Assembly (NCBI GenBank): GCA_023362775.1
Contig: JALMGJ010000006.1
Location: forward strand, 13,433,501 to 13,497,500
DNA from: Charina bottae
Taxonomy: Eukaryota; Chordata; Lepidosauria; Squamata; Charinaidae
Length of the DNA: 64,000 nucleotides
Direction of reading: 5' to 3'
Below the pieces are notes generated by a model. It saw only the letters and a program-made list of their open reading frames with translations, searched no databases and was not told the DNA's origin. Both the position numbers and the translations under genes were made by a program. Positions 27,311 through 62,260 of this stretch are shown here, piece by piece. Each line of letters opens with the position of its first letter. Position 1 is the first letter of the stretch.

Positions 27311-28176
27311 CTAAGTCATCATCAGTATATCCCAAGAGATTGAAGTGCGAGTGACTGGGAGCCTTCTCCGAAATTGTCTCCATGTTTCACCTGACAAATC
27401 GTGGAGGCTTTCCACCATATCCATCTGAAATTGGTTATCTTCAACTTCAATAAATTTCTCAAAATCCAAGGCAAATTGGTCCCGATGAATTAAATATATG
27501 GAACCGTCAACAGTTTTACTTGCTGTCCAGTGAAGGTTAGCTATTCTGAAATAATGTAGCTTCACATTAAGGTACCCTCTGATTTCTGAAACAGGTGGAG
27601 TTACTGCAATTATCCACTCTGATTTCCAGAGAACATTCCAGAATTTCTTATACTGATGGCTTTCCATGCAGACCACAAGAAATGGTCTATTTCTAATAGT
27701 TTTTCTGTAGACACGACAAGTTCCTGAAAGGAAATGTCTCTTCATGTAGGTTTCCAAGGTCACATTAAGGGTTTCTCTCCATAATTCTGCCTTATCTTTC
27801 CTAATATTACAATAAAGCAGAATTTTGTCAGGTCTTCTGTTCAGGTGATCCAATGTGAAGGAAAGCTTGATCTGTGGATCAAAGTAGCGATCCCCTCCCA
27901 TGTCATTATGGCGAGTCACCAGAACACTGTCCCCTTTTATGTTCACAGCTGTGAAGTTCTTCTTGCAGTTATTGGCACACACCTGAGCAGTCCCATGCTT
28001 CATGAGTGTATCATCACAAACCAGAAAGCGAAGGTCTTCAAAAACATTCTTGAGTTCACCTGGAGGAGACTGTTTTAGCAAATTGCATATGAATTTTATT
28101 TTCATTGCTTTAGCTGCTTCTTCTTGGGATATTTCAGATTCTGTAGGGGGTGATGGTTCTAAATCAGGAAATGAGA
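27311..28176 (-). CDS. CAPZA3: CAPZA3 terminal exon: complete capping protein alpha domain
   Basis: The exon starts after a strong acceptor (rc ttgtttcttctgcag) in phase 1 and encodes 287 residues to the stop at 27311. That is close to the 286 of CAPZA1/2, so the whole domain sits in one exon. Landmarks in order are SQEEAAKAMKIKFICNL, SPPGELKNVFEDLRFL, YFDPQIKLSFTLDHL, CRVYRKT, VVCMESHQYKKFWN, LWKSEWI and RRLPVTRTSISWD. It is strongly diverged from CAPZA1/2, as expected for CAPZA3. A methionine at 28105 could start a shorter 264-residue form, but it would remove the conserved first helix. The C terminus stops soon after LPVTRT, about nine residues earlier than CAPZA1. Confidence 0.9.
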
Positions 28177-32985: not shown

Positions 32986-33020
<35 letters not shown>

Positions 33021-36000: not shown

Positions 36001-38405
36001 ACACTAAGACAATGGCTGGTTCCCACAACACAATGAATCACAACGTATCTAATTTCATTTAAGCCTAGTTTAGTATGTGTACAAACCAAGCCAGAGGGCT
36101 TTACTGGTAATACACAGGGAAGTATTTTCACTTTTAATTGCTCTGACAAATCAGGTAATGTTGTTGGCTTTTCCCCCCTTCACAAATAGATACATAATTT
36201 GGAGAAAGTTTTCTCTGAATAGGTATTCTGAAATGCCCAGCCCTGAACTGCTCAAGTCCTGCATTATTTTTCAAGGTAGAAATTATATTCTCTGCTGCCT
36301 GCTTCCACATCCTTTAAATACTTGTTAAGTACTGTAATGGTCTGTGGAAATATCCTTGAGAGACAGGAGAAGGAAGAGCGGCAGCCAGGGCAATGGTCAG
36401 ATAAGAGACATCTCAGCCTTCAGAAGGAATGGGGGCATGGGAAGCATCTCAGAAGGGGCCCTCCCTAGTTTTCTGGAAAGCAAAGGCAGGGGAGTGGAGA
36501 CGGGCTTTCAGACTTCCAAGATTCTTACCTTACAAAAAGGGTAATGTTAGTACTCATGGTATTGGTTTCTTGTCTGGACTACCTTGAAAGGCTGACAAGT
36601 ACTGAGCTCCAAGTGTTCAAATCATAAGGTCCTCAGCACATTAGCAGGATTTTGCTAGATCATCCAGGTTGTAAGGAACAGATCCAAGTCAGATTCTATG
36701 ACACTTGTTTCACAGCCTAGAGCAGTGTTTCTCAACCTTGGCAGCTTGAAGATGTGTGGACTTCAACTCCCAGAATTCCCCAGCCAGCACGGCTGGCTGG
36801 GGAATTCTGGGAGTTGAAGTCCACACATCTTCAAGCTGCCAAGGTTGAGAAACATTGGCCTAGAATGATTGTGGTGTGGTGTTTGAGATTTCTTTGGGTT
36901 TTACCGTGGCCTGTACCTGTTTTTGCCTTTGCAGCTTCAGTATCTCCAGCTTGTTTTGTTGCTGGCTTAATGACCGCAGACTTTGGTTCTTCACTTGGTT
37001 TTGGTGTTGGTTCAGTCTTGGAAGGGCCTGCTTCAAAAGTAACAGTGGATTAAAAAAATTAAACATTTTTTACCATTTATACAAATTGTAAGAATTACAT
37101 TGACTTAAAACGAGTGGCTGAGTCGGGAAATAATAAAAATAATGGCTGATTTACCAGGAGGATGGAGATTGTTCTTTCAGACGGTTGAGATGCTTGCCTT
37201 TTTGTTTTTTAAGACAGCATATCAAATTTTATCATTATAAAATGACATACTTAAAGAGATATATTCTACATCCAAAATAAATCAAAACAAAGAAAAAGCT
37301 AATTCTGGAGAAGAGTTTTCCTTTCCAGATTTTTTTGAGCAAGATTAAAAATAGGAGAAAATCAAATAACACACTTACTCTGCTCTTTAGCCTGGGATGG
37401 TTCTGTGGTGGGTTTCTGAGTTGTGGATTGATCATCTGGTTTTTTGGGAGAAACTTTCTGATCACCTGGAGTATCTGTGGATGAGAAAATGCAAGTAATT
37501 TGAGTACAGAACAGTTGCAAGCTTATTAACTTTTACAAAACAGACAGAGATCTGGGGTATTCATAAATAGTTTTAGAACAGACATTCAGTTAGACCATGA
37601 GTGATATATTACATGCTTCTGAAAGCTGTTCAGATGTTTGAGATTTTGCTTCCTAACATTAACGCTTACGAGGCTTTACTGTTACAGAAAGAAATATTAA
37701 GGCATTTGTTTTGCGTCTTCAGCTAAAACAAAGCAAAAATGAACCAAATGGGAGTGAGAATGGTGTTCTATCTGCAGGATTTCTCTAAACAAGACAGACA
37801 GTGTACGAATGTCAAATTATCAAAACTCTGACATAGGCTATACATTACCTTCCTGTTTAGGCTGGGATGATCCTGGAATGGGCTTTGGGGCTGTGGGTTG
37901 ACCCATGTTTTCCTTATATACCAAATACAACACCAACTATATTTTGTCTGCATATGGTGATTATCATACAGGATAAAAGCCAGTTTGGTCTAGTGGTTAA
38001 GGTGCTGGGCTAGAAACCAGGAGTGTGTGAGTTCTAGTCCTGCCTTAGGCATGAAAGCCGGCTGGGTGACCTTGGGCCAGTCCCTGTCTCTCAGCTCTAG
38101 GAAGGAGCCAATGGCAAACCAGGAGACTGAGAGTTCTAGTCCCGCCTTAGGCATGAAAGCCGGCTGGGTGACCTTGGGCCAGTCATTCTCTCTCAGCCCT
38201 AGGAAGGAGCCAATGGCAAACCAGGAGACTGTGAGTTCCAGTCCCACCTTAGGCATGAAAGCCAGCTGGGTGACCTTGGGCCAGTCACTCTCTCTCAGCC
38301 CAACGCACCTCACAGGGTTGCTGTTGTGGGGAAAATAGGAGGAAGGAGTATTAGGTATGTTCGCCGCCTTGAGTTATTTATAAAGAAAAAATAATAAAGG
38401 CAGGA

Positions 38406-38450
<45 letters not shown>

Positions 38451-41400: not shown

Positions 41401-44400
41401 CGGAAGATCTGTATAGGAAGGATAATAATATTGGAGATAGCTTTGACGGTGTGGTCAGTGAGTTAGAGCCAGACATCCTGAAGAGTGAGATTGAATGGGC
41501 CTTAAGAAGCATTGCTAATAACAAGGCAGCAGGAGACGATGGTATCCCAGCTGAACTGTTTAAAATCTTGCAAGATGATGCTGTCAAGGTGATGCATGCC
41601 ATATGCCAGCAAATTTGGAAAACACAAGAATGGCCATCAGATTGGAAAAAATCAACTTATATCCCCATACCAAAAAAGGGAAGCACTAAAGAATGTTCAA
41701 ACTATCGAACAGTGGCACTTATTTCACATGCCAGTAAGGTAATGCTCAAGATCTTGCAAGGTAGACTGCAGCAATTCATGGAGCGAGAATTGCCAGATGT
41801 ACAAGCTGGGTTTAGAAAAGGCAGAGGAACTAGAGACCAAATTGCCAATATCCGCTGGATAATGGAGAAAGCCAGGGAATTTCAGAAAAACATCTATTTC
41901 TGTTTTATTGACTATTCTAAAGCCTTTGACTGTGTGGATCATAACAAATTGTGGCAAGTTCTTGGTGGTATGGGGATACCAAGTCATCTTGTCTGCCTCC
42001 TGAGGAATCTGTATAACGACCAAGTAGCAACGGTAAGAACAGAGCACGGAACAACGGACTGGTTTAAGATTGGGAAAGGAGTACGGCAGGGTTGTATACT
42101 CTCACCCTACCTATTCAACCTGTACACAGAACACATCATGCGACATGCTGGGCTTGAGGAATCCAAGGCTGGAGTTAAAATCGCTGGAAGAAACATTAAC
42201 AATCTCAGATATGCAGATGATACCACTTTGATGGCTGAAAGCGAGGAGGAGTTGAGGAGCCTTATGACGAAGGTGAAAGAAAGTGCAAAAGCTGGGTTGC
42301 AGTTAAACCTCAAAAAAACCAAGATTATGGCAACCAGCTTGATTGATGACTGGCAAATAGAGGGAGAAAAAGTGGAGGCAGTGACAGACTTTGTATTTCT
42401 AGGCGCAAAGATTACTGCAGATGCTGACTGCAGCCAGGAAATCAGAAGACGTCTACTTCTTGGGAGGAGAGCAATGGCAAATCTTGATAAAATAGTTAAG
42501 AGCAGAGACATCACACTGACAACAAAGGTCCGCATAGTTAAAGCAATGGTATTTCCTGTAGTAACCTATGGCTGCGAGAGCTGGACCATAAGGAAGGCTG
42601 AGCGAAGGAAGATAGATGCTTTTGAACTGTGGTGTTGGAGGAAAATTCTGAGAGTGCCTTGGACTGCAAGAAGATCAAACCAGTCCATACTCCAGGAAAT
42701 CAAGCCAGACTGCTCACTTGAGGGAATGATATTAAAGGCAAAACTGAAGTACTTTGGCCACATCATGAGAAGACAGGATACCCTGGAGAAGAAGCTGATG
42801 CTAGGAAAAGTGGAAGGCAAAAGGAAGAGGGGCCGACCAAGGGCAAGATGGATGGATGGTATTCTGGAGGCGACGGACTCAACCATTGGGGAGCTGGGGA
42901 TGGTGACGGCCGACAGAAAGCTCTGGCGTGGGCTGGTCCATGAAGTCACGAAGAGTCGGAAACGACTGAACGAATAAACAAAATACCCATTCTGATAGAT
43001 AATATATCATGGAAGACATTCTGCTCTCTTATTAAGCATCATGCTGTCAGGACCATTAGGACCATACCAATCCATGCATTCCACACTTGAAATCCAAGCT
43101 TTAAACTCCGTTGAAAAGGTGTAGAAAAAGTAATTTTGAAAGATTCTTTGTCAGGAAGTTCAAGATAATTGTAAATATATTCCTAGTTTTTTTCATAATT
43201 GCACATATTAGCTTTCATTTGTGTGATAAGATTCATCTCTTTTTTTCACCAGCAGTTGTCTAACTATGACATAGTTATCATAAGGTTTAGCAAAGCCTTA
43301 GGAAAGTCAGAACATGCATTATCAAGAAGGGCATTGTCTATTTCTTGAGCTTACTCACTGCTTGAAGTGTATGATCGTTCCAAAAGGTTTAATTGCTCTA
43401 AGAAGTACTAGGAAAGTAGCTTCAGATCTTCAAATAATTCTTTCCAATAGCTCAGGAAATATAGAAGAGAACCTTTGCTTCTTCATATAGTTTAGAAAGT
43501 CAGTATAGCCTTGCCTACCACTGGATCTAATCTGGCATTTTTTCCCCTATGGATTTCTCCTTTAAACATCGTTATGAAATGTTGCTAAACTGGAAATACA
43601 TCTCCTAATGTAGACAGTTAAACAGAAAGGATGTTCACTATTACGGTAGTTCCTGCTTGAGACATCTTCCCCAACATTGTCTAGGTCAGAGCTTTCAAAA
43701 CTGTGTGTCGCGACACAAAAGTGTGTCGCCACACACAGTCTGGTGTGTCGCCACACAACCCGGAAGCTCTGATCATTATCAGCACTTCCGGGTTTTCCCA
43801 CGGCGACACACCAACTGCAGAGCGCAAAACCGGAAAGCGCAGTAGCGCTTCCGGGTTTTTGCGCACTGCCGCACTTCCGGGTTTTCCCGCGGCGACACAC
43901 CGACGCCGGTTGGTGTGTCGCCACGGGAAAAACTTTGGAAAGCCCTGGTCTAGGTCATTGAACAATCACTAAATTATTTTTCAGATAGAAATAACGACTC
44001 ATTAGTTCCTCAGCTTTTGAAGCATGTGTCAGTTTAGGGGCCCCAAGTATCCCATGCTCTTCAACACATTGGGTGAACATTGTTAAGAGATCATCCTATT
44101 TATAAGCAGTAGGAGAAGGGTTAGCATTTAATTTCTATTTTTAAATGAGGTGGCTTCCTTTGTGTCACAGCTGTGACATAATTATTTGTGGGCAGCAGAG
44201 TGTTCAGTTGATAATTGTTGAGTTTCCTTTTAGGTTTATCAGAGCCTTCAGGTTTCTTAGTCTTTGCACCCTGGGCGTCCACAGATTCTTGTGCTGTTGG
44301 TTTAGTATCCTTATCCTGTAGGTCTCTTCTCTCTCTTAGTCATGGAAGAGCCAGCCTCAGAAGTAATACTAGGACTTTTTTGTCTTTTCATAAATAAACA

Positions 44401-47077: not shown

Positions 47078-47115
<38 letters not shown>

Positions 47116-50100
47116 GTTTAAAAACACAAAGAAAAATAACAACCCACAAAGAAAAAAAGGAAAGATGTTATCTCCAATTAAGTGATAAGGGGTGATTTAC
47201 CAGGAGCCTGGGGACTGACGGTTGTTGCCGTTGGTTGAGCTGTTTGAGGTTTTTGTTTCCAAGGGAATTTGCCAGAAGAAATAATACAAGAAAAAAACAT
47301 TAGGAGTTGTATATTGAAACTTGAAAAGAAAGGAAAAGGAAGCAAAAATAAGGATACTCAGACAGTATTCTGCCTTTCAAGATTTCTGTAGTTAGACTGA
47401 AAATCCAGACCATTTGGAATGTCAAAGCCCCCATCCCACCTTGTGCTTTAACTTCCTGTTGAGGCTGAGATGGTTCTGGAGTGGACTTCTTGTCTGGTGG
47501 CTGGTCACTGACAGGTTTGGGAGGGACGTTTGCGTCACGCACAGTATCTGTAGACGAGAAATTGCAAGTTGTTTGAGCATGCAGATATTACAAACAAACC
47601 ACAAACAATCAAACAATGGCCCAAATTATTCATAAAACAATATGTATGATAAATTATATACGGAATATTGGTGGACAGCAAAAGAGATTCAAAGACACTC
47701 TCAAAGCTAATTTAAAAAAATGTAATATCAGCATTGAGAACTGGGAAGCCCTAACTCATGAGCGTTTCAATTGGAGGTCAGCCTTTATTAATGGCGCTAT
47801 GGACTTTGAAGAAGCACGAGTACAGGGCGAAAGGGAGAAAAGAGCTAAAAGGAAGGCACGTCAGGCAAACCCTCATCATGACCGTCTCCCACCCGGAAAC
47901 CTATGCCCTCATTGTGGGAGGTTGTGCGGATCCAGAATTGGCCTTTATAGCCACTTACGGATCCACTGTAAAAAGTTTACCCTTGGAAGACAATCTTACT
48001 CAGCTACGAGTGATCGCCAATGAATGAATGATATAGTCCCCATCACCCCATGTGTACTCCTACACAGCACCACAAAATTATCCTGCTGAAATGTGTTGCA
48101 AAATAGACAATTGTGTTGATATGATTTTTTAAAACATGTAATTCATAGTAGAATGGTAGAGAGAAGCCACCCTCAGCCCATTGAATGGTATATTTTGGAC
48201 AGAGACAGAGGCTTACCAGCAAGTAGGAAGCCTCTGGAAATAGCTTGTCTCCATCTCATTCTTAAATCTCACAAAACTCTCTTAAAGGCCCCAAATCAGC
48301 CTCAAAGTGGTGTTTTGGGACCATGTGGTGTGAAGGTTGGGAATGAAAGTAGGAATGGGAATGGTTATCATTCCAGAAGTCACTCACTCCTATTTGCACC
48401 CTTAACCTCCTCCACAAAACAAATGGAAACCCAACCTCTTCTTGTGGCATCATCACAGCATCAGATGCTTTACTGAGACCCTCCAGAAGGTTGACAGGCT
48501 GAACTGAGCCCTGCAATCCAGCAGATGTTGCCCAGCCTGTCTTATGGGTACGACACGTTTCCCTGAGATGCCAGGCATCACTATATAACCCTGTAGATAG
48601 AAATAATTTCCTGTGGGCCTTCTATATCTTTTTAAGCACTTATAGAGGGAGAAGACCAAAATACCCTCACCAAAGGTTCCTCAACTTATTGGCTAAGGCA
48701 GAGCTTTCCAAACTGTGCGTCGGGACACGTTAGTGTGTCGGCTGCAGTGTCTGGGTGTGTCACGGCTGCAGCCCTGCCAGGATTCCACGCAGGTCCTAGT
48801 GCCTGCCTTGTGCCTGCTGTAAGAGTGTGTTGCAAAATGATGCCCTGCTGTAAGAGTGTGTCGCGAAATGATCCATGTCTAAAAAGTGTGTCACCAACAT
48901 GAAAAGTTTGGAAAGCTCTGGGCTAAGGTGTCAGCCAAAATCTAAGCAAAAGCAGAAGAGTTAGTGAGTTAATAAATGAGTTAGTTAATGATCCCACTTG
49001 TGTCGTTAAGGGTAGCTAGAGGGTCCCTGAAGAGCAACTTGAGTTTTATCTTCGATTTACCAGGGGTTTCTGGTTTCTTGTCCTTTGTAGCTGGGGCATC
49101 CGCTGCTTGCTTTGCTGCTGGTGAAATCCCTGTAGGTTGTGGATCCATTGTCAGTTTTGGCTCTGGTTCAGTCGTTAAAGGGGCTGTCACAGGAGGAATT
49201 GTGGGACCTGCTTTTTTTTCAAAAAAATATAGGCATTAGAAAGACAAAGAAAAAGAACAACCCACAAAAAAGAAAGAAGGAAAGATGTTAACTCCAATTA
49301 AGTGATAAGGGGTGATTTACCAGGAGCCGGGGGACTGCCGGTTGTTGCTGGTGGTTGAGCTGTTTGAGGATTTGTTTCCAGGGGAATTTGCCAGAAGAAA
49401 TAATACAAGAAAAAAAATATTAGGACTTGTATATTGAAACTTGAAAAGAAAGGAAAAGGAAGCAAAAATAAGGATACTGAGACGGTATTCTGCCTTTCAA
49501 GATTTCTGTAGTTAGACTGAAAATCCAGACCATTTGGAATGTCAAAGCCCCCATCCCACCTTGTGCTTTAACTTCCTGTTGAGGCTGAGATGGTTCTGGA
49601 GTGGACTTCTTGTCTGGCGGCTGATCACTGACAGGTTTGGGAGGGACATTTGCGTCACGCACAGTATCTGTAGACGAGAAATTGCAAGTTGTTTGAGCAT
49701 GCAAATCTTACAAACAATTTATATTATAAAGCAGGAATAATGAGACAATAGCCCAAAGTATTCATTTTTCAATATGTAATTCATGTGAAACTGGTTCCTC
49801 TTTTATTTTATATATCAAATGGGGAAATTATAACAGTAGACTTCCTCATTAACAAATACATTATGGAGGAAACTTTTTATTTCATCCATCCTGAAAAGAC
49901 CTTAGAGAGGTATAGAGGCTGCTGTAGCTCTTCTTTCATTTAGGAATCTATTTAGGAATAGATTTTATATTTTACATGTTAGAGTTTTTATTATACTTGT
50001 ATATTTATATTTTTATAATGTATCTTTTAAATTAATATTTAATACTTACTGTTTTAATTTGTTTGTAAGCCACCCAGAGTCATTTCGAGATGGCCGGTGA

Positions 50101-53100: not shown

Positions 53101-56100
53101 GCCCCAACCACAGATGCTGAAGAAGCAGAAGTAGATCAGTTCTATGAGGATCTGCAGCACCTACTGGATAATACGCCAAAAAGAGATGTTATTTTCATTA
53201 CAGGCGACTGGAATGCTAAGGTGGGTAGTCAAACGACACCTGGAATTACAGGCAAGCATGGTCTGGGAGAACAAAATGAAGTGGGACATAGGCTGATAGA
53301 ATTTTGCCAAGACAACTCACTGTGCATAACAAACACTCTCTTCCAACAACCTAAAAGACGACTTTATAGATGGACTTCACCAGATGGTCGACACCGAAAT
53401 CAGAGACACTCAAGGCCAAAGCTGATACCCGTAACGTAACTGGCTGGGCTCCCCATGCATAGTTTGTCAGTCGTCGGACGATGTTATTCCTGGCAGATAC
53501 TTTAGCCTTGGTATTCAGGCAATGATGCTTAAAGGAAAGCGTTCTGTCCAACGTAACACCCAAATATTTAAATGTTGGGCAGTGTTGTAATCTGTTCCCT
53601 CTCCACATAATATCCAATTCAACCCCTGCATCTCAATTGCGAAGATGAAAGGCACATACTTGAGTTTTGCTTGGATTAGGTTTTAAGTAATTATTATCAT
53701 AATACCGCTCCAGTTCTTCTAGAGCTTGTGATAATTTTTCAGCACACTCATCGAAACTCGGTTCTTGTATCATCTGCATATATGAACATTCGCGTGTTGG
53801 TCGGGGCGGGTTGGTTGTTAGTATATATATTATATAAAATAGGCAATATATTATATAAAAAGGGGGCCACACTTGAATCTGTGTCTTCCTACAGCCAGTC
53901 AACACCCTAACCATAACATCATATTAAACCCGCCCAGTAACCAAATATTCTGCTGCTGAAATGGGTTAGCAAAATAGACCCTTTTGTTAATAGAACTTCT
54001 TAAAAATAATCCGTAGTAGAAATGGTAGTAGGAGGCCAATGTTGGCCCATGTCTTTGCATATTTGCACAGGGAGAAAGGATGACCTTGACAGTAGAAGGT
54101 CTCTAGGAAACAACCTGTCTCCATTTCATCCTTAAATCCTGTAAACTCTTCTTAAAAGCCCCAAAATTTACCTTGAAATGATTTGATGGCTAGGTTCGAT
54201 AGTGAAAGTAGAAATGGGAGTGGGTTTTATACTAGAAGTCTCCCACTTCTAGTCTCTCCCCCTCCACAAAAGAAAATAGTCTGAAAAGGTTCTTCCCAAT
54301 CTGGTCTTATGACACCATCATACCAACAGAAGGCCTACTGAGGCCCTCCAGAAGGTTGACAGGGTGAACTGAGACCTGCAATCCCAGAAATGTTGCCCAC
54401 CCTTTCTTATGGGTATGACATGTTTCCAATAGATTCCAGGCATCGCTACTTAAGTCCCCCATAGATAGAAATGATTTCCTGTGTGCCTGATACATCCTTT
54501 TAAGCAACTGTAGAGGGATGAGACCAAATACCCTCACCAGACGTTCCTCAACATATTGGCTAGGGTGTCAGTCAAGTTCTGAGCAAAAATACAGTAGAAG
54601 TCAGTGTGTGTTAAGGCATGGTCCCACTTGTGTTGTTAAGGGTAGCTAGAGGGCCCCTGAAGAGCAACTTGAGTTTTATCTTGGATTTACCAGGGGTTTC
54701 TGGATTCTTGTCCTTTGCGGATTGGGCTTCCTCTGCTTGCTTTGCTGCTGGTGCAATCCCTGAAGCTTGTGGTTCCGTTCTCGGTGTTGGTGCTGGTTCA
54801 GTGGTTAAAGGGGCCACCACAGGAGGAATGGTGGCACCTGCTGTTTCTTTAAAAAACATATAGACATTAAAAACACAAAGAAAAACAACAGCCCACAAAG
54901 GAAAAAAAGAAGGAAATATGTTATCTCCGATTAAGAGATAAGGGTTGATTTACCAGGAGCCTGGGGACTGACGGTTGTTGCTGATGGTTGAGCTGTTTGA
55001 GGTTTTTGTTTCCAAGGGAATTTGCCAGAAGAAATAATACAAGAAAAAATATTAGGAGTCGTATATTGAAACTTGAAAAGAAAGGAAAAGGAAGCAAAAA
55101 TAAGGATACTGAGACAGTATTCTGCCTTTCAAGATTTCTGTAGTTAGACTGAAAATCCAGACCATTTGGAATGTCAAAGCCCCCATCCCACCTTGTGCTT
55201 TAACTTCCTGTTGAGGCTGAGATGGTTCTGGAGTGGACTTCTTGTCTGGCGGCTGATCACTGACAGGTTTGGGAGGGACGTTTGCGTCACGCACAGTATC
55301 TGTAGACGAGAAATTGCAAGTTGTTTGAGCATGCAAATCTTACAAACAATTTATATTATAAAGCAGGAATAATGAGACAATAGTCGAAAGTATTCATTCT
55401 TCAATAAGCAATTCATGTGAAACTGGTTCCTCTTTCATATATCAACTGGTGAAATTATAAAAATAGAATTCCTCATTAAGAGAGTCATTATGGGAGGAGA
55501 TTTTTATTTGACCTATCGTGAAAAGATCTCAGCTAGGGTTACCAGATGTCCGGCAAAAGGAGGACATGTCCTCCTTTTTGGCCTCCCGTCCTCCAACCGG
55601 CAAGCATAGCCTTAAAATCAAATATTGTTCAGCTTTTTGAGTATCTCTTCCTGAGCAGCTTTTCTTCATGGTATCATCAGGGCGTAGCCCATCAATTTGC
55701 ATGTCCTTATTGATGGTGTCCTGCCATCTATGTTTTGGTCGTTCACGTGGCCGTTGGCCATCAATCTTAAGATGGTAAGCTATTTTGGAGACAGTGGAAG
55801 GTGCCGCTCTAAGGACATGTCCATACCAACGAAGCCGGCTTTCTCTCATCTTCTCTGTAATTAATGACACGCCTAGTTGTTGGTGAATGGCATCATTTGT
55901 GACGTGGTCGAGTAGGGAGATGCCCGATATCCAATGAAGCATAAGCATTTCCATAACACGGAGACATCTCTCTACACTCTTTGTTGCTGCCCAACACTCG
56001 GTGCCATACAATGCCACAGGGCGGACAATCGTCTTAGAGATCTTATATTTGAGATGGATTGGCATTTGTTTATCACAAAGCACACAGGTGAGTTCTTGCC

Positions 56101-59786: not shown

Positions 59787-59837
<51 letters not shown>

Positions 59838-62071
59838 TTTATTTAATTTATATAACCGCCCATCTCCCCCAACGGGGAACTCTTTTCCAGTGAGTCCTCT
59901 CTTCGCATTAGGTGGCCAAAGTATTTGAGCTTCACCTTCAGCATCTGTCCTTCCAATGAGCAGTCAGGGTTGATTTCCTTTAGGATTGACTGGTTTGACC
60001 TCCTTGCAGTCCAAGGGACTCTCAAGAGTCTTCTCCAGCACCACAGTTCGAAAGCATCAATTCTTTGGCGCTCAGCCTTCCTTATGGTCCAACTCTCACA
60101 GCCATACATTACTACTGGAAAAACCATAGCTTTAACTATTCGGACCTTTGTCGGCAAGGTGATGTCTCTGCTTTTTAATATGCTGTCTAGGTTTGCCATA
60201 GCTTTCCTCCCAAGGAGCAAGCGTCTTTTAATTTCATGGCTGCAGTCACCAAACTATCTCTGACTTTATATATAGATTTCAGTGCTGAGGCATTTCCTTT
60301 TTGTTTGCTTGTTTTGCAGGTATCACACATCTAGCCTTACTTATGTGGGTTAATATGAGCTCTTGTGAAAATTCTGACCCAGTTGTACCTTTGTGAGGAT
60401 GTTGGAGACCTGAGGGGACTTGCCTGACACTGCCTAAGTGTCCTCATCATTTAATCATTTGGATATCCTTATGTGCTTCTCCTGTGACATCTGGACCATT
60501 TCCTGTGTGATAGTCCCAAAAAACTAGTCACAAGTTCCTCAACACATGGACGGTATTTTGGTGATATAGTACATTAGCCCACTTACATTTTTAAAATGTT
60601 TTTACTGACAGAGGGCTGGTAGTAAAAAATCTCCACATTGTGACAATTTACCATTCTTTTACTTTACCCTGTTTTTCAGGTTCCTTTGTCTTTGACACTG
60701 GAAGGTCCACTGGTTGTTTTGTTGTTGTTTTCCCATCTGAAGATGGTGGTTCTTTATTGTCTGTTGGCGCTGGTTCAGTTTTGGAAGCGCCTGTCTCAGA
60801 AGTAACAGTAGGGCCTGGGATTTTGGAAAAAAATGAATATTAAATATTCTTTACATACATTCATATATCTATTTTCTGAGAAAGCTGGCTAGAACTCTGT
60901 AACAAGGCCAATTGGAAAAAAGTACGTAACAAGTCTGAAAGAAAGCCAACGAAAACAGTAACATTAATGACTGTATGTATCGGCCTTAAGGAAACATAAT
61001 CGTCAGAAATCTTCCTCAGGAATTCTTATCCTTACCTTTAACACTGGAGGATTCTGCAGTGGGGGTCTAGCATATTGGTTCCACTTTTTTCTTTTAAAAA
61101 ATTCAATAGAGCTTACATCCAAATAAGTATATGAAAGTTTGGTTTGCAAATTTGCCAACATTTATTATTGGTCAACTTTTTTGGGGTGGGGGTGGGGTAA
61201 TGGATGCAGCCTGATTTCAAACAATATGATGAACACCAGGCTTGTGATTCGTCAGGACAAATAAATTTTCAAAGAATCGATTCACATTTCAGTGTAATTA
61301 GTCAAGGACAGTTACTCATTTCATAATTTGACTTGCCACGTTTGAAATTATAATTTGGCACCTAGTATTGCAGAAGGGTGGTGGTGCAGGGCATGGTAGC
61401 TCAGCAGGTAAGATGCCAGGCTTGTCAATCAGAAGTTTGCAAGTTCGGAGGTTCGAATCCCTAGCCCCGCGTGACGGAGTGAGCTCCCGCACTCACCCCA
61501 GCTCTTGCCAACCTAGCAATTCGAAAGCATGCAAATGCAAGTAGATTAATAGGTACCACTTCAGTGGGTAGGTAACAGCATTCCGCATGTGTCATGCAGC
61601 CACATGACTGTGGAAGCGTCTTTGGACAATGCTGGCTCTTTGGCTAACCAATGGAGATGAGCACTGGCCCCTAGAGTCGGACACGACTGCACAAATTTAC
61701 CTTTACCTTTTTTTTTTATTGCAGAAGGTGTGATAGTTACAATGTGATAATTCAGCATTCCTTTAGTTTTACCATTTTTTTCAGGTTCCTTTGCCTCCGA
61801 AGTTGGAACATCCACAGGTTGTTTTGATGTTGTTTTAGCATCTGTACGTGGTTGATCAGTACCATTTTTCGGTGCTGGTTCAGTTTTTGAAGGGCCTGTT
61901 TCAACAATAGCAGTGGGATGTGGGATTTGGGGGAAAAATAAATATTAAATACCTTTTACAGATATTCATACATTTCTGTTTCTGTGAAAGCTTGCTAAAT
62001 CCCTGTTACACAATCACACTGAAAAATGTGTTTAACGAATTCTGATGCAAAACACAACTCTAAAATATTGT

Positions 62072-62112
<41 letters not shown>

Positions 62113-62260
62113 GGCCTTGGAGGACATATACTAAGCATTCACATTATTAGAAAAAACAAAACAAAACAAAATCCTTCCCCAAGTATATTTTACCCTTATT
62201 TTTAGCATGCTTGGAGTCGAGGTCTGGTTTACTGGTATCTCTCTTCTTTTTTGAAAACAT
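27311..62260 (-). CDS. CAPZA3: CAPZA3 gene model with repeated N-terminal exons (about 19-20 exons)
   Basis: Proposed join on the minus strand: 62260-62194, 61895-61773, 60790-60668, 55299-55192, 54992-54954, 54837-54691, 50611-50489, 49667-49560, 49359-49321, 49207-49061, 47547-47440, 47239-47201, 47073-46930, 46010-45942, 45822-45676, 44550-44470, 37890-37849 (doubtful), 37474-37379, 37027-36917 and 28176-27311. All internal exons are phase 1 to phase 1. The total is 2,727 nt, 908 codons plus stop. The C-terminal 287 residues are a capping protein alpha subunit, which pairs with the beta subunit to block actin barbed ends. CAPZA3 is the testis and sperm paralogue. The preceding 620 residues are Pro/Thr/Lys/Glu/Ala rich with no hydrophobic core, so probably disordered. 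The mammalian CAPZA3 I know of is about 299 residues and intronless. Linking the repeat exons to the capping exon is inference from strand, phase and splice sites; a separate repeat-protein gene is the alternative. Confidence 0.68.
28500..29060 (-). mobile_element. L2 LINE 3' part, antisense, old
   Basis: Carries the same landmarks as the coding L2 at 33175-35301 (ctgttccagagggaaaatgcc, aattgatggg, ggttttatggatat), preceded by a degenerate tail. No open frame survives. Confidence 0.7.
29030..29165 (+). repeat. Unassigned repeat, possibly LTR end
   Basis: Shares ttcagacttgcaagattct, a caataaagg polyadenylation-like site and gggtttcttagtctggtctacct with 36480-36600. The order resembles an LTR 3' part, but the evidence is thin. 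Confidence 0.4.
29322..29402. mobile_element. Fold-back family 1, one arm
   Basis: Matches the left arm of the 9190 and 20475 elements (tggagtccttggtgctcgct to taacatcatcagtg). The other arm was not found nearby. Confidence 0.65.
29753..30236. mobile_element. Fold-back family 2 with GC-rich palindromic core
   Basis: Ends are aggctgaccatacatcctg and ctcaaggaaatatggtcagtct, as in the inner element at 20587-20818. The core (29860-30190) is made of alternating direct and inverted blocks of ggagggaacccggaggag type and is very GC rich. Confidence 0.75.
30595..31178 (+). mobile_element. Ty3/gypsy-type pol fragment, left part
   Basis: Degenerate LTR-retrotransposon reverse-transcriptase coding. It includes EKYSDFADIFGEEEATVMPP, then LKPGAQIP, a G-rich interruption near 30908-30975, and VHDYKNLNKVTIRDHYLLP, FTKLDLRSA and ITFDTRYG. 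The usual catalytic-core order is present but several positions are changed and frames are broken, so it is inactive. No LTRs are recognisable. It is split by a BovB insertion and resumes at 32016. Confidence 0.88.
31179..32015 (+). mobile_element. BovB LINE inserted into gypsy pol, with TSD
   Basis: An 837-bp 5'-truncated BovB of the second subfamily, flanked by the 12-bp duplication atggcaaatgga (31167-31178 and 32016-32027). It encodes AGRNINNLRYADDTTLMAK through MVHEVTKSRT with one frameshift near 31575, and ends in (AAC)n. Confidence 0.93.
32016..32960 (+). mobile_element. Ty3/gypsy-type pol fragment, right part
   Basis: Continues the interrupted pol: MPFGLVNCGAVLSRLMNEIF, VVYLDDILFFSED (YLDD box), then HFLGLANFYQKFIPNF and KPLSQLLKK at the RNase H side. 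A (CG)n(CA)n run at 32311-32340 interrupts the coding. The frame is shifted relative to the left part. Confidence 0.87.
32311..32340. repeat. (GC)n(AC)n dinucleotide run
   Basis: Alternating purine-pyrimidine tract grown inside the gypsy relic; sequence of Z-DNA-prone type. Confidence 0.9.
32985..35310 (-). mobile_element. L2-clade LINE with long RT reading frame
   Basis: The minus strand has one open frame at 35301-33175 (708 codons): a basic region (RVKRRLERRWRKTKTEF), RT motifs FRPGYGTETALVAL, LLDLSVAFDTIDHG, GVLQGSVLSPLLFN and HHNADDTQLYIS, and a conserved C-terminal region (HVDYCNALYMGLP, LHWVPVCFRV, NSLPPELRQ). The endonuclease is missing by 5' truncation. The RT catalytic box reads NADD for the usual YADD, and VPQG is LQG, so the enzyme is probably dead despite the open frame. 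The 3' end is ctgggcggtttacag with a TTTA tail at 32985-33025. LINE order and motifs fit L2 better than CR1. Confidence 0.88.
35311..35689. other. No recognisable feature
   Basis: Intronic AT-rich DNA with a short (TTCA)n near 35503-35522. Confidence 0.5.
35690..35915 (+). mobile_element. tRNA-derived SINE, type 1
   Basis: Begins gagagcctgtttggtgtagt (A-box region ggtgtagttgttaaag), B box gagttctagtcctg, then gctgggtgaccttgagccag, ending near (CATA)n. Related to Sauria-type tRNA SINEs by structure. Confidence 0.85.
36400..36605 (+). repeat. Unassigned repeat, possibly LTR end
   Basis: Similar in order to 29030-29165 (ttcagacttccaagattct, ggtttcttgtctggactacc). Function unknown. Confidence 0.4.
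36723..36857. mobile_element. hAT-like MITE, near-perfect palindrome
   Basis: 135 bp whose two halves are almost exact reverse complements (cagtgtttctcaaccttggc ... gccaaggttgagaaacattg), flanked by 8-bp duplications gcctagag at 36715-36722 and gcctagaa at 36858-36865. It sits 60 bp from a CAPZA3 repeat exon. Confidence 0.88.
36917..37027 (-). CDS. CAPZA3: CAPZA3 repeat exon, type A/A2 hybrid
   Basis: 111 nt, phase 1 to 1, acceptor rc acttttgaagcag and donor gtacag. It encodes PSKTEPTPKPSEEPKSAV followed by KPATKQAGDTEAAKAKT. The first half resembles type A exons (60668, 50489) and the second half resembles the KQAEEAQSAKDK part of type A2 exons, so the two types share ancestry. It is the last repeat exon before the capping domain. 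Confidence 0.8.
37379..37474 (-). CDS. CAPZA3: CAPZA3 repeat exon, type B
   Basis: 96 nt, phase 1 to 1, acceptor rc tttctcatccacag and strong donor gtaagtg. It encodes TPGDQKVSPKKPDDQ and TTEPSQAKEQ. It is an older relative of the type B exons at 47440, 49560 and 55192, which share the flanking tctg...gcaag intron context. Confidence 0.82.
37849..37890 (-). CDS. CAPZA3: Possible CAPZA3 repeat exon, partial type B
   Basis: 42 nt if the acceptor rc tcaacccacag is used, phase 1 to 1, donor gtaatg. It encodes PKPIPGSSQPKQE, like the 3' half of type B. The pyrimidine tract is weak and the 5' half of the parent exon is gone, so it may be a decaying exon. Confidence 0.45.
37980..38455 (+). mobile_element. 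tRNA-derived SINE with triplicated core
   Basis: A type-1 SINE (A box tggtctagtggttaagg, B box gttctagtcctgcc) in which the segment from the B box to ggagccaatggcaaaccag is repeated three times at about 97-104 bp spacing. It ends in (AAATA)n then (AAAT)n at 38408-38452. Confidence 0.88.
38592..39216. mobile_element. hAT-like MITE with very GC-rich minisatellite core
   Basis: Terminal repeats catagctttccaaactg and cagtttggaaagcactg, flanked by perfect 8-bp duplications ttctaatg (38584-38591 and 39217-39224). The core has inverted gtgtgtcgcgacacac blocks and a GGC/GCG-rich array of cgtgcggcggcgcgcgtg type. An internal aaagctctggtttag near 39010 suggests one copy landed inside another. The long open frames on both strands here are composition artefacts. 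Confidence 0.88.
39767..42982 (+). mobile_element. Full-length intact BovB LINE with perfect TSD
   Basis: A 3.2-kb element bounded by a perfect 12-bp duplication atacccattctg (39755-39766 and 42983-42994). The 5' UTR begins ctccagcaaaggagatcg. One uninterrupted frame at 39948-42977 encodes 1009 residues. The endonuclease region has GTWNVRSMSQGKLD, SELKWTGMGH, IQIYAPTTDAEEA, GDWNAKVG and SSDHELL. The RT has YIPIPKKGS, QAGFRKGRGTRDQ, FIDYSKAFDCVDHNKLW, RQGCILSPYLF and NNLRYADDTTLMAE. The C-terminal region has YGCESWTIRKAERRKID and WCWRKILRVPWT. All expected catalytic boxes are present, so it may be, or very recently was, mobile. It is sense-opposed to CAPZA3 and intronic to it. Confidence 0.96.
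39948..42977 (+). CDS. BovB endonuclease-reverse transcriptase, intact
   Basis: A 1009-codon frame, near the usual length for a single-ORF RTE protein. It nicks target DNA through an AP-type endonuclease (about residues 60-330) and copies its own RNA through a reverse transcriptase (about 500-790). The C-terminal 200 residues are a conserved RTE tail with a WCWR motif. The start ATGGATCAGTACAACC is the first in-frame methionine after the 5' UTR and is also kept in the copy at 52582. There is no frameshift or stop. Confidence 0.94.
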   Translation: MDQYNQRYVGIPSEDGTPRSEDGQNATGEEQRIRSTSPRCDDAASSKPKGRLAADGAGGERRIRCSKDQHTIGTWNVRSMSQGKLDVVIGEMSRLNIDILGVSELKWTGMGHFTSDDHQIYYCGQEDHRRNGVAFIINNKVAKAVLGYNPKNDRMISIRIQGKPFNITVIQIYAPTTDAEEAEVDQFYEDLQHLLDNTPKRDVIFITGDWNAKVGSQTTPGITGKHGLGEQNEAGHRLIEFCQDNSLCITNTLFQQPKRRLYTWTSPDGRHRNQIDYILCSQRWRTSIQSVKTRPGADCSSDHELLIAKFRIRLKRIGKTHRSVRYELTNIPKEYAVEVKNRFKGLDLVDRVSEELWTEVRNIVQEAATKNVPKKKKTKKARWLSAETLEVAQERRKAKGNSDRGRYAQLNAKFQRLARRDKELFLNKQCAEVEEDNRIGRTRDLFQKIRNIGGKFQAKMGMIKKKDGKDLTEAEEIKKRWQEYTEDLYRKDNNIGDSFDGVVSELEPDILKSEIEWALRSIANNKAAGDDGIPAELFKILQDDAVKVMHAICQQIWKTQEWPSDWKKSTYIPIPKKGSTKECSNYRTVALISHASKVMLKILQGRLQQFMERELPDVQAGFRKGRGTRDQIANIRWIMEKAREFQKNIYFCFIDYSKAFDCVDHNKLWQVLGGMGIPSHLVCLLRNLYNDQVATVRTEHGTTDWFKIGKGVRQGCILSPYLFNLYTEHIMRHAGLEESKAGVKIAGRNINNLRYADDTTLMAESEEELRSLMTKVKESAKAGLQLNLKKTKIMATSLIDDWQIEGEKVEAVTDFVFLGAKITADADCSQEIRRRLLLGRRAMANLDKIVKSRDITLTTKVRIVKAMVFPVVTYGCESWTIRKAERRKIDAFELWCWRKILRVPWTARRSNQSILQEIKPDCSLEGMILKAKLKYFGHIMRRQDTLEKKLMLGKVEGKRKRGRPRARWMDGILEATDSTIGELGMVTADRKLWRGLVHEVTKSRKRLNE
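42995..43678 (-). other. CAPZA3 intron
   Basis: Non-coding sequence without a named repeat. Confidence 0.5.
43687..43947. mobile_element. hAT-like MITE (same family as 38592)
   Basis: 261 bp, ends cagagctttcaaaactgtg and aactttggaaagccctg, flanked by 8-bp duplications gtctaggt (43679-43686 and 43948-43955). The inside contains repeated cttccgggtttt and tgtgtcgccac blocks. Confidence 0.9.
44228..44354 (-). pseudogene. Dead CAPZA3 repeat exon, type A
   Basis: Related to the type A exons (tcttccatgactaa for tccaaaactgaa; later gatactaaaccaacagc and aagactaagaaacctga). The acceptor AG is changed to TG, a TAA stop interrupts the frame, and no donor GT follows. It is no longer usable. Confidence 0.65.
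44470..44550 (-). CDS. CAPZA3: CAPZA3 repeat exon, type D
   Basis: 81 nt, phase 1 to 1, acceptor rc tatctttcttcataatag and donor gtaaaa. It encodes KAGKVSGKKDAQTDRGTA and KPDSPKTP, Lys-rich. It is the only copy of this type in the window and has the PKTPG-like ending shared with A2 exons. Confidence 0.78.
44950..45600 (-). repeat. Duplicated intron block, copy 4
   Basis: The first of four related intron blocks lying 3' of each A2 exon (others at 46130-46860, 48040-48970 and 53940-54650). Shared landmarks are gctgctgaaatggg, gcaaaatagac, tattttggacag, gaccaaaataccctcacc-like and cagccaaaatctaagca. Together with exons B, C and A2 it forms a unit of about 1.4-1.5 kb. Confidence 0.85.
45676..45822 (-). 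CDS. CAPZA3: CAPZA3 repeat exon, type A2 (copy 4)
   Basis: 147 nt, phase 1 to 1, acceptor rc aaccccaacag and donor gtaaat. It encodes PTIPPVVAPVTTEPAPTP, then QASGIAPAAKQAEEAQ and KDKKPETP. Compared with copy 1 at 54691 I count six base differences, five of which change the residue. Confidence 0.85.
45942..46010 (-). CDS. CAPZA3: CAPZA3 repeat exon, fused type B/C
   Basis: 69 nt, phase 1 to 1, acceptor rc ttgtctacag and donor gtaaat. It encodes TVSDAKVPQPQPPATTISP. The first third equals the start of type B (TVRDANVP) and the rest equals micro-exon C (QPSATTVSPQAP), which are two exons about 300 bp apart in the other units. Either a deletion fused them or this is the ancestral undivided form. 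Confidence 0.83.
46130..46860 (-). repeat. Duplicated intron block, copy 3
   Basis: Homologous to 44950-45600, 48040-48970 and 53940-54650. It contains the intact (unfilled) site corresponding to the LINE insertion at 47640-48030. Confidence 0.85.
46930..47073 (-). CDS. CAPZA3: CAPZA3 repeat exon, type A2 (copy 3)
   Basis: 144 nt, one codon shorter than the other A2 copies, phase 1 to 1. The acceptor lies directly after a GATA/GACA microsatellite (rc tatctatcgcag); donor gtaaat. It encodes PTIPPVAAPLTAEPPKPT, ASGIAPAAKQAEDAQAA and KKPGTP. Confidence 0.85.
47078..47115. repeat. (GATA)n(GACA)n microsatellite at splice acceptor
   Basis: A GATAGATAGACAGACAGACA run directly abutting the A2 acceptor; read on the minus strand it supplies the pyrimidine tract (TCTGTCTGTC). 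Confidence 0.9.
47201..47239 (-). CDS. CAPZA3: CAPZA3 micro-exon, type C (copy 3)
   Basis: 39 nt, phase 1 to 1, acceptor rc acctcaaacag and donor gtaaat. It encodes QPTATTVSPQAP. Such short symmetric exons are usually easy to skip. Confidence 0.75.
47440..47547 (-). CDS. CAPZA3: CAPZA3 repeat exon, type B (copy 3)
   Basis: 108 nt, phase 1 to 1, acceptor rc tttctcgtctacag, donor gtggga (weaker than consensus). It encodes TVRDANVPPKPVSDQPPDK and EPSQPQQEVKAQ. The protein is identical to copies at 49560 and 55192; the three base differences I see are all synonymous. Confidence 0.85.
47640..48030 (+). mobile_element. Non-LTR retrotransposon 3' end with zinc-finger tail
   Basis: 5'-truncated. 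It encodes QQKRFKDTLKANLKKCNI, then LCPHCGRLCGSRIGLYSH followed by LRIHCKK, a C2H2-like terminal finger. Same family as 3505-4822 but sense. It is inserted in a CAPZA3 intron; the homologous intron at 46.1 kb lacks it. Confidence 0.85.
48040..48970 (-). repeat. Duplicated intron block, copy 2
   Basis: Homologous to the other three blocks, enlarged by the hAT-like MITE at 48699-48920. Confidence 0.85.
48699..48920. mobile_element. hAT-like MITE with empty paralogous sites
   Basis: 222 bp, ends cagagctttccaaactg and agtttggaaagctctg, flanked by perfect 8-bp duplications ggctaagg (48691-48698 and 48921-48928). The homologous position near 45535-45545 reads ttattggctaggatgtcag without the insert. 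Confidence 0.92.
49061..49207 (-). CDS. CAPZA3: CAPZA3 repeat exon, type A2 (copy 2)
   Basis: 147 nt, phase 1 to 1, acceptor rc gaaaaaaaagcag, donor gtaaat. It encodes PTIPPVTAPLTTEPEPKLTM, then QPTGISPAAKQAADAPATK and KKPETP. It is the most diverged of the four A2 copies. Confidence 0.84.
49321..49359 (-). CDS. CAPZA3: CAPZA3 micro-exon, type C (copy 2)
   Basis: 39 nt, phase 1 to 1, encodes QPPATTGSPPAP. Same splice context as the other C copies. Confidence 0.75.
49560..49667 (-). CDS. CAPZA3: CAPZA3 repeat exon, type B (copy 2)
   Basis: 108 nt, phase 1 to 1, protein identical to copies 1 and 3. A silent AAT for AAC distinguishes it from copies 1 and 3. Confidence 0.85.
49950..50130 (+). 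mobile_element. L2 LINE 3' end
   Basis: L2-like 3' UTR with gtaagccacccagagtca and an (AAATA)n tail. The paralogous site near 56635 (tttaggaatcctctaatttcc) lacks it, so it inserted after the block duplication. Confidence 0.75.
50489..50611 (-). CDS. CAPZA3: CAPZA3 repeat exon, type A (copy 3)
   Basis: 123 nt, phase 1 to 1, acceptor rc acttttgcagcag, donor gtaaaa. It encodes LSKTEPAPTDSKEPPSSDG, KLTTKQPVDLPTS and KTKIPTKQ. Nearly identical to the exon at 60668. Confidence 0.84.
50837..50912 (-). pseudogene. Dead duplicate of CAPZA3 first exon
   Basis: Homologous to the ATG exon at 62194-62260 and to 61036-61098, but the ATG is lost, a TAG lies in the corresponding frame and the donor is displaced. 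It indicates that first exon plus type A exon was copied as a block. Confidence 0.6.
50948..50978 (-). mobile_element. BovB terminal scrap
   Basis: Only the last 30 bases of a BovB end (ttgttgttgttcagtcgttta) are present, in antisense. Confidence 0.6.
50979..51928 (-). other. CAPZA3 intron, no named feature
   Basis: AT-rich sequence. The stretch around 51590-51740 recurs near 61220-61370 (aacaccatgctttcaaac/gacaaattaattttt region), so the duplicated block extends here. Confidence 0.55.
51929..52150 (+). mobile_element. tRNA-derived SINE, type 1
   Basis: Well preserved: gagagccagtttggtgtaat, A box ggtgtaatggtcaagg, B box gagttctagtcccgcc, then gctgggtgaccttgggccag and aaccacttctgaaaaacctt. 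Confidence 0.9.
52160..52400. repeat. L2 tail scrap expanded to a (TAATA)n minisatellite
   Basis: Starts with an L2 3' terminal piece (gtaaaccgcccag ... gggcggtaat) and becomes about 200 bp of TAATA repeats up to 52397, where a BovB begins. Confidence 0.88.
52405..53406 (+). mobile_element. BovB 5' part, 3'-deleted
   Basis: Contains the 5' UTR and the first 275 codons of the same subfamily as 39767-42982, from ctccagcaaaggatatcg through the endonuclease GDWNAKVG box to SPDGRHRNQ. It then stops abruptly at 53406. LINEs are normally 5'- not 3'-truncated, so the remainder was lost by deletion or recombination. Confidence 0.93.
53407..53915 (-). mobile_element. Non-LTR retrotransposon fragment, unassigned family
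   Basis: The minus strand encodes EECAEKLSQALEEL-like sequence (reading DECAEKLSQALEELERYYD), YLKPNPSKTQVCAFHL, and then FKYLGVTLDRTLSFKHH followed by KVSARNNIVRRLTNYAWG. This is the region after the RT YADD box of a LINE. It abuts the broken BovB in opposite orientation. Confidence 0.75.
53940..54650 (-). repeat. Duplicated intron block, copy 1
   Basis: Homologous to blocks at 44950, 46130 and 48040, with more divergence. Confidence 0.82.
54691..54837 (-). CDS. CAPZA3: CAPZA3 repeat exon, type A2 (copy 1)
   Basis: 147 nt, phase 1 to 1, acceptor rc aaagaaacagcag, donor gtaaat. It encodes ATIPPVVAPLTTEPAPTPR, then QASGIAPAAKQAEEAQ and KDKNPETP. Confidence 0.85.
54954..54992 (-). CDS. CAPZA3: CAPZA3 micro-exon, type C (copy 1)
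   Basis: 39 nt, phase 1 to 1, encodes QPSATTVSPQAP, with the same acceptor and donor as copies 2 and 3. Confidence 0.75.
55192..55299 (-). CDS. CAPZA3: CAPZA3 repeat exon, type B (copy 1)
   Basis: 108 nt, phase 1 to 1, protein identical to copies 2 and 3; acceptor rc tttctcgtctacag, donor gtggga. Confidence 0.85.
55537..56595. mobile_element. DNA-transposon-like ends enclosing an RTE fragment
   Basis: The left end agggttaccagatgtccgg and right end cctgataacccgatt are imperfect inverted termini, with aggaggacatgtcctcctt hairpins just inside. The enclosed minus-strand LINE fragment lies at about 56500-55610. The homologous intron near 49.9 kb lacks the whole segment. Confidence 0.6.
55610..56500 (-). 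mobile_element. RTE-like non-LTR fragment (RT end and C-terminal region)
   Basis: The minus strand encodes HQGSALSQLLFMLVMD, TILYADDVMLAST, HFGLHLNIKNTEY, then RPVALYGTECWA and ESRLRWYGHVLR, followed by RPKHRWQDTINKD. Order and motifs fit an RTE-type element distinct from BovB. It is interrupted by frameshifts and truncated at both ends. Confidence 0.8.
56772..57516 (-). mobile_element. BovB 3' part with TSD and an empty paralogous site
   Basis: 745 bp antisense, second subfamily, flanked by the 12-bp duplication tttctggcattt (56760-56771 and 57517-57528). The duplicated intron copy at about 50215-50255 shows the unoccupied site (gggtttctggcatttacaca). Confidence 0.94.
57529..58405 (-). other. 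CAPZA3 intron, no named feature
   Basis: Non-coding DNA without recognisable repeats. Confidence 0.5.
58407..58742 (-). mobile_element. tRNA-derived SINE, type 2
   Basis: Antisense. The right end is the reverse complement of a tRNA-like head (ggggcatggtggctcagcgg, B box aggttcgaatccct) and the left end is the RTE-like tail ctagagtcggatacgactgc. A sense copy is at 61388-61712. Confidence 0.9.
58743..59265 (-). other. CAPZA3 intron, no named feature
   Basis: Non-coding DNA; nothing recognised. Confidence 0.5.
59268..59374 (+). mobile_element. BovB 3' end scrap, first subfamily
   Basis: Only the last 100 bp (gggggagctgagggtggcga to gaacgaataaacaaca), equivalent to the end of the full-length copy. 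Confidence 0.85.
59590..60252 (-). mobile_element. BovB 3' part, interrupted by an L2-tail insertion
   Basis: Antisense, second subfamily. Coding resumes across an insertion at 59789-59880 that consists of (ATT)n, (TTTA)n and a 35-bp L2 terminal box (ataaccgcccatctcccccaa). Without the insert the sequence would read continuously from gggtct to tttccagtgag. Confidence 0.92.
59789..59880 (-). mobile_element. Minimal L2 3'-tail insertion with (ATT)n expansion
   Basis: Only the extreme L2 3' end plus tail repeats is present, splitting the BovB copy; a 3-bp tct duplication may flank it. Confidence 0.7.
60668..60790 (-). CDS. CAPZA3: CAPZA3 repeat exon, type A (copy 2)
   Basis: 123 nt, phase 1 to 1, acceptor rc ttctgagacag, donor gtaaag. 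It encodes ASKTEPAPTDNKEPPSSDGK, TTTKQPVDLPVS and KTKEPEKQ. An alternative upstream acceptor (rc aaatcccag at about 60817) would stay in frame and lengthen the exon by nine codons. Confidence 0.84.
61036..61098 (-). pseudogene. Dead duplicate of CAPZA3 first exon
   Basis: Aligns with the ATG exon at 62194-62260 (gaaccaatatgctagaccc against gataccagtaaaccagacc) and keeps a good donor gtaagg, but has no ATG and carries TAG in the equivalent frame. Confidence 0.65.
61388..61712 (+). mobile_element. tRNA-derived SINE, type 2
   Basis: Head gggcatggtagctcagcagg (A-box region), B box aggttcgaatccct, conserved body to ctagagtcggacacgactgc, and an oligo-T-rich tail. The tail resembles RTE 3' ends, consistent with mobilisation by an RTE partner. 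Confidence 0.92.
61773..61895 (-). CDS. CAPZA3: CAPZA3 repeat exon, type A (copy 1)
   Basis: 123 nt, phase 1 to 1, acceptor rc attgttgaaacag, donor gtaaaa. It encodes PSKTEPAPKNGTDQPRTDAK, TTSKQPVDVPTSEA and KEPEKN. It follows the first exon after a 298-bp intron. Confidence 0.83.
62075..62110. repeat. (TG)n microsatellite
   Basis: Pure TG run in the first CAPZA3 intron. Confidence 0.95.
62194..62260 (-). CDS. CAPZA3: CAPZA3 putative first coding exon
   Basis: ATG at 62260-62258, then FSKKKRDTSKPDLDSKHAKN and a final K, ending in phase 1 at AAGG|gtaaaa. Phase 1 matches every downstream repeat exon. A possible upstream acceptor (rc attcattggcag) would enter in phase 0, which does not fit the all-phase-1 pattern, so I treat the ATG as the translation start. 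The context around the ATG is weak (C at -3). Two decayed copies of this exon at 61036 and 50837 support its being an old part of the gene. Confidence 0.62.

Follow-up and report, generated by a model that had tools for sequence, protein, structure and literature searches.

CAPZA3 of Charina bottae very probably carries, upstream of the exon for its capping domain, a snake-specific array of small coding exons that is fused to the gene and would lengthen the protein at its N-terminus. Taken as a whole, this explanation is given a probability of about 0.8. The repeat exons very probably belong to CAPZA3 because records from other snakes join them to the capping domain and because the ancestral start codon has gone from the snake capping exon. 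That they are coding and would be spliced to the capping exon is considered highly likely; that all 17 small exons are used together is unlikely. If true, this would be an unusually clear case of an intronless ORF that became a multi-exon gene, in which introns returned to a testis gene of one exon and the added coding array came to exceed the capping domain in size; the probable outgroup condition (lizards), the loss of the start codon as the lock-in step and the birth and death of exons would all be readable.

The capping exon and the PLCZ1 neighbourhood

The window analysed here is a stretch of 64,000 nt (C234:13433501-13497500) of a genome of 1.80 Gb. On its minus strand, the ORF 28219-27311 contains a capping-protein alpha domain, which matches PF01267 with E=1.7e-62 and 211.8 bits against a curated cut-off of 24.2, over profile positions 1-253 of 263. 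The best solved relative of the capping exon is CapZ alpha-1 (E=7e-58). When a predicted structure of middling quality (pLDDT 68.9, pTM 0.52) was compared by Foldseek, the top matches were capping-protein entries (E=5e-22 and up; TM 0.54-0.56 in the top rows), and the rows of vertebrate CapZ alpha were 33-35% identical to the capping exon. In the C-terminal tentacle region LPVTRT-x-I-x-W is present and the chain stops about 9 residues before the end of CapZ alpha-1, an early end shared by six of the seven lizard CAPZA3 records, that of Podarcis being a few residues longer.

Protein searches with the capping domain returned as best matches snake (79-85% identity) and lizard (58-64%) records, mostly named CAPZA3. 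In a tree of 19 rows, the window sequence and seven other snake rows, P0011 and P0014 among them, formed one clade (100/100) beside lizard CAPZA3, with 35% identity to CAPZA1; the placement of human CAPZA3 was weak (63/68). Liasis showed the highest identity to the window sequence (85%), which was drawn as sister to a clade of six snake rows, including Notechis, Thamnophis, Pituophis and Erythrolamprus, while Liasis fell outside this pairing (89/82, not starred). By its taxonomy, we take this six-row clade to be colubroid; the window thus comes from a snake that is probably not itself a colubroid. By its best matches and its PLCZ1 neighbour the gene is CAPZA3, and the identity proposed by the sequence-only reading, a reading of the window made without database searches, was thus correct.

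A second open and intronless capping-alpha gene, possibly another testis paralogue, was found elsewhere in the genome (L001, G000:C2:8132789-8136580, 1480-2403 on the minus strand). It was considered as the real CAPZA3 and rejected, as it is 43% identical to CAPZA1 and 36% to the window CAPZA3, and groups with CAPZA1, although this grouping may be spurious, as both branches are long.

With a PLCZ1 sequence as query, the first exons of PLCZ1 were located on the plus strand from C234:13508680, and the proposed first exon of CAPZA3, E1, lies on the minus strand at C234:13495760. The two genes are therefore head-to-head neighbours, with the capping exon 47-48 kb from PLCZ1. Between them, at about C234:13506.05-13506.5 kb, there is a CpG island (72% GC, CpG ratio 0.86), approximately 2.2 kb from the first exon detected for PLCZ1 and with E1 about 10 kb further in, which contains a CRE-like TGACGTCG at L008:8627. 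In mammals, according to PMC7138945, CAPZA3 is back to back with PLCZ1 and they share a common bidirectional promoter with putative CREM sites.

The GC-rich fronts of two snake CAPZA3 models map into this island on the minus strand, that of Liasis with 60% identity over 130 columns (E=4e-30) and that of Pituophis with 59% over 44 columns (E=4e-7). In the window species the frame of the island-derived Liasis first exon is broken by a stop and a shift, and the exon overlaps the CRE-like site; it is therefore probably misannotated, and the GC-rich first exon was rejected as a true coding start for both models. The island is treated here as a putative promoter or 5' UTR rather than as established coding sequence. 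The first exons of CAPZA3 records from two snakes other than the window species (P0012 and P0001) match L008:9051-8606, apparently reading the island as coding, CRE-like site included.

Two PLCZ1-like genes in plus-strand tandem flank CAPZA3, at C234:13404-13456 kb (window 15981-22357) and at C234:13508.7-13553 kb. In the 30 kb upstream of the left one, tblastn at E 0.05 detected no EF-hand exons (residues 5-122), and this gene may be 5'-truncated, diverged or longer.

The upstream exon array

The features of the locus are listed in Table 1. The capping exon (28176-27311, minus strand) with its phase-1 acceptor, an ATG exon ending at 62194 and small exons of phase 1-1 are all found where the sequence-only reading had placed them. 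It had also counted about 18 small exons and a summed ORF of 2,727 nt; the present model contains 17 small exons plus E1 and the capping exon, and its sum (67 + 1776 + 866 = 2709 nt) is indeed divisible by three, encoding 902 aa with a single stop at the end, but the claimed length was not reproduced. Alternative acceptors in several exons could explain the 18-nt gap. The capping domain itself is contained in a single exon, but the predicted ORF extends into the upstream exons.

Table 1. Predicted features of the CAPZA3 locus, in window positions
Feature	Positions	Strand	Length	Remarks
Possible polyadenylation signal AATAAA	27228..27233	-		first base 27233, ~78 nt after stop
CAPZA3 terminal exon	27311..28176	-	287 codons	capping-protein alpha; stop at 27311-27313
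Exon D5	36917..37027	-	111 nt	C/D type; phase 1-1
Dead B-type copy	37153..37192	-		by eye: acceptor lost, short deletion; including the copy breaks the frame
Exon A5	37379..37474	-	96 nt	counterpart joined to capping domain in Liasis CAPZA3 record
Dead C-type copy	44230..44387	-		by eye: in-frame stop, donor lost
Exon F	44470..44550	-	81 nt	phase 1-1
Exon D4	45676..45822	-	147 nt
Exon A/B4	45942..46010	-	69 nt	hybrid: first part of an A exon joined to a B exon
Exon D3	46930..47073	-	144 nt
Exon B3	47201..47239	-	39 nt
Exon A3	47440..47547	-	108 nt	protein identical to A1 and A2
Exon D2	49061..49207	-	147 nt
Exon B2	49321..49359	-	39 nt
Exon A2	49560..49667	-	108 nt
Exon C3	50489..50635	-	147 nt
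Exon D1	54691..54837	-	147 nt
Exon B1	54954..54992	-	39 nt
Exon A1	55192..55299	-	108 nt
Exon C2	60668..60790	-	123 nt	147 nt with acceptor 60814
Exon C1	61773..61895	-	123 nt
Exon E1	62194..62260	-	ATG + 22 codons	donor GTAAAA

The small exons comprise repeats of types A, B, C and D, one A/B hybrid and one single type, F, and all of them have AG/GT ends and phase 1-1. An AG 9 nt before the ATG of E1 could act as acceptor for splicing from a 5' UTR exon. In the coding frame the 17 small exons contain no stop in 575 codons, compared to 8 in 592 and 31 in 575 in the other two forward frames and 16, 15 and 19 in antisense. Among 2000 Markov sequences none was stop-free (mean 14.7 stops, minimum 2). 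A scan for open AG..GT intervals of phase 1-1 with at least 62% P/T/K/E/S/Q/A and at least three Pro, a filter set after the sequence-only reading was known and with overlapping alternatives counted apart, passed 71 of 186 intervals on the minus strand and just 2 of 137 on the plus; four of the minus-strand intervals that passed are at 28-30 kb and so not within the array. Stricter splice scores left three intervals (A1-A3) on the minus strand and none on the plus, and many donors and acceptors of the array are therefore weak; the acceptor of the capping exon scored 5.0 and an alternative at 28158 scored 2.2.

The array includes duplicated blocks in which the A, C and D exons sit, and length differences among the live exon copies are multiples of 3 nt. 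Of 22 copy pairs, 18 had a higher identity in the exon than in each of the two 250-nt flanks; the pairs are not independent, and some margins are of 1-2 points or less. The four exceptions were D1-D2 and the three pairs of B exons, which are preceded by 250 bases of 98-99% identity. Exons A1-A3 differ by synonymous changes alone (three events), encoding one identical protein, and between them and A5 dN was 0.43 and dS 1.14-1.39. Similarly, D1-D4 versus D5 gave dN of 0.32-0.39 and dS of 0.80-1.06, and dN was below dS in the three pairs of C exons. Among D1-D4 themselves dN exceeded dS in all six pairs, which would mean relaxed or diversifying change, and the B pairs were mixed; therefore, constraint on the young copies is not demonstrated. 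From the open exons, the comparisons of copy pairs, the dN/dS pattern and the two dead copies, it follows that the array is probably coding but turning over.

Two introns hold long mobile-element ORFs. Between exons F and A5, an uninterrupted LINE-type ORF of 1009 codons (window 39948-42977, plus strand) encodes an endonuclease/reverse transcriptase, BovB/RTE-like by eye; fragments related to it occur at 41-2817 and 52582-53439. The intron that precedes the capping exon holds a reverse-transcriptase ORF of 709 codons (33175-35304, minus strand), CR1-like by eye.

Start-codon loss, snake records and competing readings

The seven lizard CAPZA3 records (Rhineura, Pogona, Sceloporus, Varanus, Elgaria, Anolis and Podarcis; 58-63% identical to the window CAPZA3 in the domain) and one quail record found are all short, at 272-284 aa. 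Five of the lizards start 21-25 residues before the PPGE motif, and Elgaria and Anolis start 33 residues before it yet also have a Met within the 21-25 range. The aligned lizard start Met is missing in eight of eight snake rows, where acidic sequence stays open to the exon edge. The six colubroid rows have no Met in the capping exon before the KLMK/KLIK stretch, and rows P0011 and P0014 have one exclusively 5' of the presumed exon edge. In the window, an in-frame stop closes the frame 43 nt before the acceptor and the sequence 3' of the acceptor is conserved, which therefore marks an intron/exon edge; the first Met of the capping exon is its residue 24. As the old start codon is lost, the capping domain needs residues encoded upstream, at least in colubroid snakes. 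The sequence-only reading had left open whether the tail was gained or kept. Because the lizard and quail records are short and the lizard start ATG is missing in snakes, the tail was most likely gained, in snakes and at the N-terminus, rather than kept.

Repeat-exon sequence runs into the capping domain in the CAPZA3 records of Liasis (507 aa), Pituophis (425 aa) and Erythrolamprus (423 aa). Each match was tested against 300 shuffles and beat every one of them. In Liasis the exon corresponds to A5 (22 of 29 residues; score 126 versus 56 for the best shuffle), and against D1-D4 Pituophis scored 123-135 (best shuffles 79-84) and Erythrolamprus 111-115 (best shuffles 83-88). In all, z was above 4 in 11 of 39 comparisons of tails and exons, one of which, Liasis with A1, fails against its shuffles (60 versus 65). 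These comparisons revealed no counterpart of E1, B1, the C exons or F in the three records, so the proposed start exon is without outside support. The records look like automatic models and differ among themselves in exon content and first exon; like the window gene they join A- or D-type sequence to the capping domain, but with fewer exons and another first exon. They imply an acceptor a little 3' of 28176. For Notechis and Thamnophis, the records carry the label partial and have no initial Met.

A domain-led search found ten long capping-domain proteins, Liasis and nine fungal fusions unrelated to the tail. A tail-led search (650 aa, the tail plus the start of the capping exon, against the 7991 candidates sharing most words) gave none at E <= 0.001, but it is uninformative because it also missed the three known long snake records.

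These data bear differently on the alternatives. A real but much shorter fusion, with few exons used (for example E1, one or two A/D exons, A5 and D5) and the rest skipped or recent junk, has a nearly even chance; it is a milder form of the preferred explanation and the two are not mutually exclusive. The snake records would agree with it, holding few units when counted by eye (one A-type exon in Liasis, about two or three D-type units in Pituophis and Erythrolamprus), as would the two dead copies and the young D copies without sign of constraint, whereas the open frame, shared phase and AG/GT ends of all 17 small exons, together with the purely synonymous differences among A1-A3, argue for wider use.

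That CAPZA3 is expressed solely as a short protein, from a local promoter and the residue-24 ATG (28105), with the repeat exons forming a separate gene or decaying remnants, is much less probable. This ATG, the first in frame in the capping exon, has a G at -3 (GCAATGA), would retain nearly the whole domain and could start a short form in the window snake and in Liasis. However, the residue is Leu in six of six colubroid rows, the capping exon is preceded by 524 AT-rich bases with 2 CpG, and three snake records link repeat exons with the capping domain. Rows P0011 and P0014 (source 'lgn', contigs of 1786 and 2839 bases) begin just before the acceptor and would favour the short form if they are transcripts, but the P0014 leader matches the window outside the capping frame, with a stop inside, and the P0011 leader has no evident counterpart in the window.

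Finally, it is hardly credible that the repeat exons are a separate Pro/Thr/Lys-rich gene ending before 36.9 kb and match CAPZA3 in phase by chance: an 8.7 kb intron with retrotransposon sequence separates them from the capping exon and the tail matches no Pfam family, but three other snake records put such exons in CAPZA3 and the capping exon of the colubroid rows needs an upstream start.

Putative role and comparison with known systems

Under the preferred explanation, that of a snake CAPZA3 with an N-terminal exon-array extension, CAPZA3 would ancestrally have been compact, its ORF in one exon and head-to-head with PLCZ1. Insertions and tandem duplications of DNA in the snake lineage would then have lengthened the stretch that separates the shared promoter from the ORF: the promoter would have stayed beside PLCZ1, and retrotransposons and tandem duplication would have pushed the ORF away. 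Small phase-1/1 exons would have arisen in between and now be spliced before the old ORF, whose start codon was lost, leaving no AUG at the front of the capping exon in at least colubroid snakes. The product would be a capping-protein alpha subunit with a probably disordered N-terminal arm of up to about 615 residues, the length of which would change through exon gain and loss. Its domain would pair with the beta subunit and cap filament ends as usual, and in spermatids or sperm the arm may work as a flexible spacer or tether.

The predicted tail of 615 residues contains 19.7% Pro, 12.4% Lys, 12.4% Thr and 12.2% Ala; it lacks Cys and has 2 aromatic residues, and a Pfam search of it matched no family. 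By composition it is probably a disordered, nearly neutral chain. The N-terminus of CapZ alpha is located in the stalk, away from the filament end, so an N-terminal arm need not block capping and could serve to tether. Mammalian CAPZA3 has been reported in the acrosome, the flagellum and the post-acrosomal region (PMC7138945), so the arm could set the position of the cap. Such a tether or spacer role is proposed tentatively. A bolder version, which we hold to be rather doubtful, is that the fusion is obligatory in every snake: loss of the start codon would have locked translation to a fast-changing array, and a lineage-specific arm would evolve under sperm-related selection into an adjustable actin anchor.

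A literature search on CAPZA3 in snakes found nothing, and CAPZA3 was absent among the matches listed for lizard, reptile and squamate literature, which says little. Among the matches listed for N-terminal extensions of capping-protein alpha and for F-actin capping in snake testis or sperm, no description was found in the text available for them. The statement of the sequence-only reading that it knew of no description of such a form thus holds for the literature searched, but the long form is not wholly unrecorded, because it is already present in three database records, of 423-507 aa. From the literature searched, we know of no earlier long N-terminal arm on a capping-protein alpha subunit, and if the reading is true this would be the first known to us, in a sperm protein.

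The PEVK region of titin is encoded by many short in-phase exons and forms a flexible chain rich in Pro, Lys and Glu. The predicted CAPZA3 tail resembles it in exon layout and composition rather than by any demonstrated sequence relation, and has no Pfam match. Lizard CAPZA3, by comparison, starts at the ATG that is missing from the snake rows. Mammalian CAPZA3 (CP-alpha-3, Gsg3) likewise has a single-exon capping domain and PLCZ1 back to back, and the putative CREM site described there (PMC7138945) has a parallel in the CRE-like TGACGTCG here. The mouse gene is intronless, as stated in PMC7138945 and PMC3428356, whereas the window model has about 19 exons, with the domain in the final one and about 615 extra residues before it. 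Retrogenes that gained introns or new exons, as described in PMC3565874 and PMC5408686, are likewise cases of an intronless gene acquiring exons or introns; unlike in those, the gain proposed here is a coding array that was amplified in tandem and exceeds the original ORF in length.
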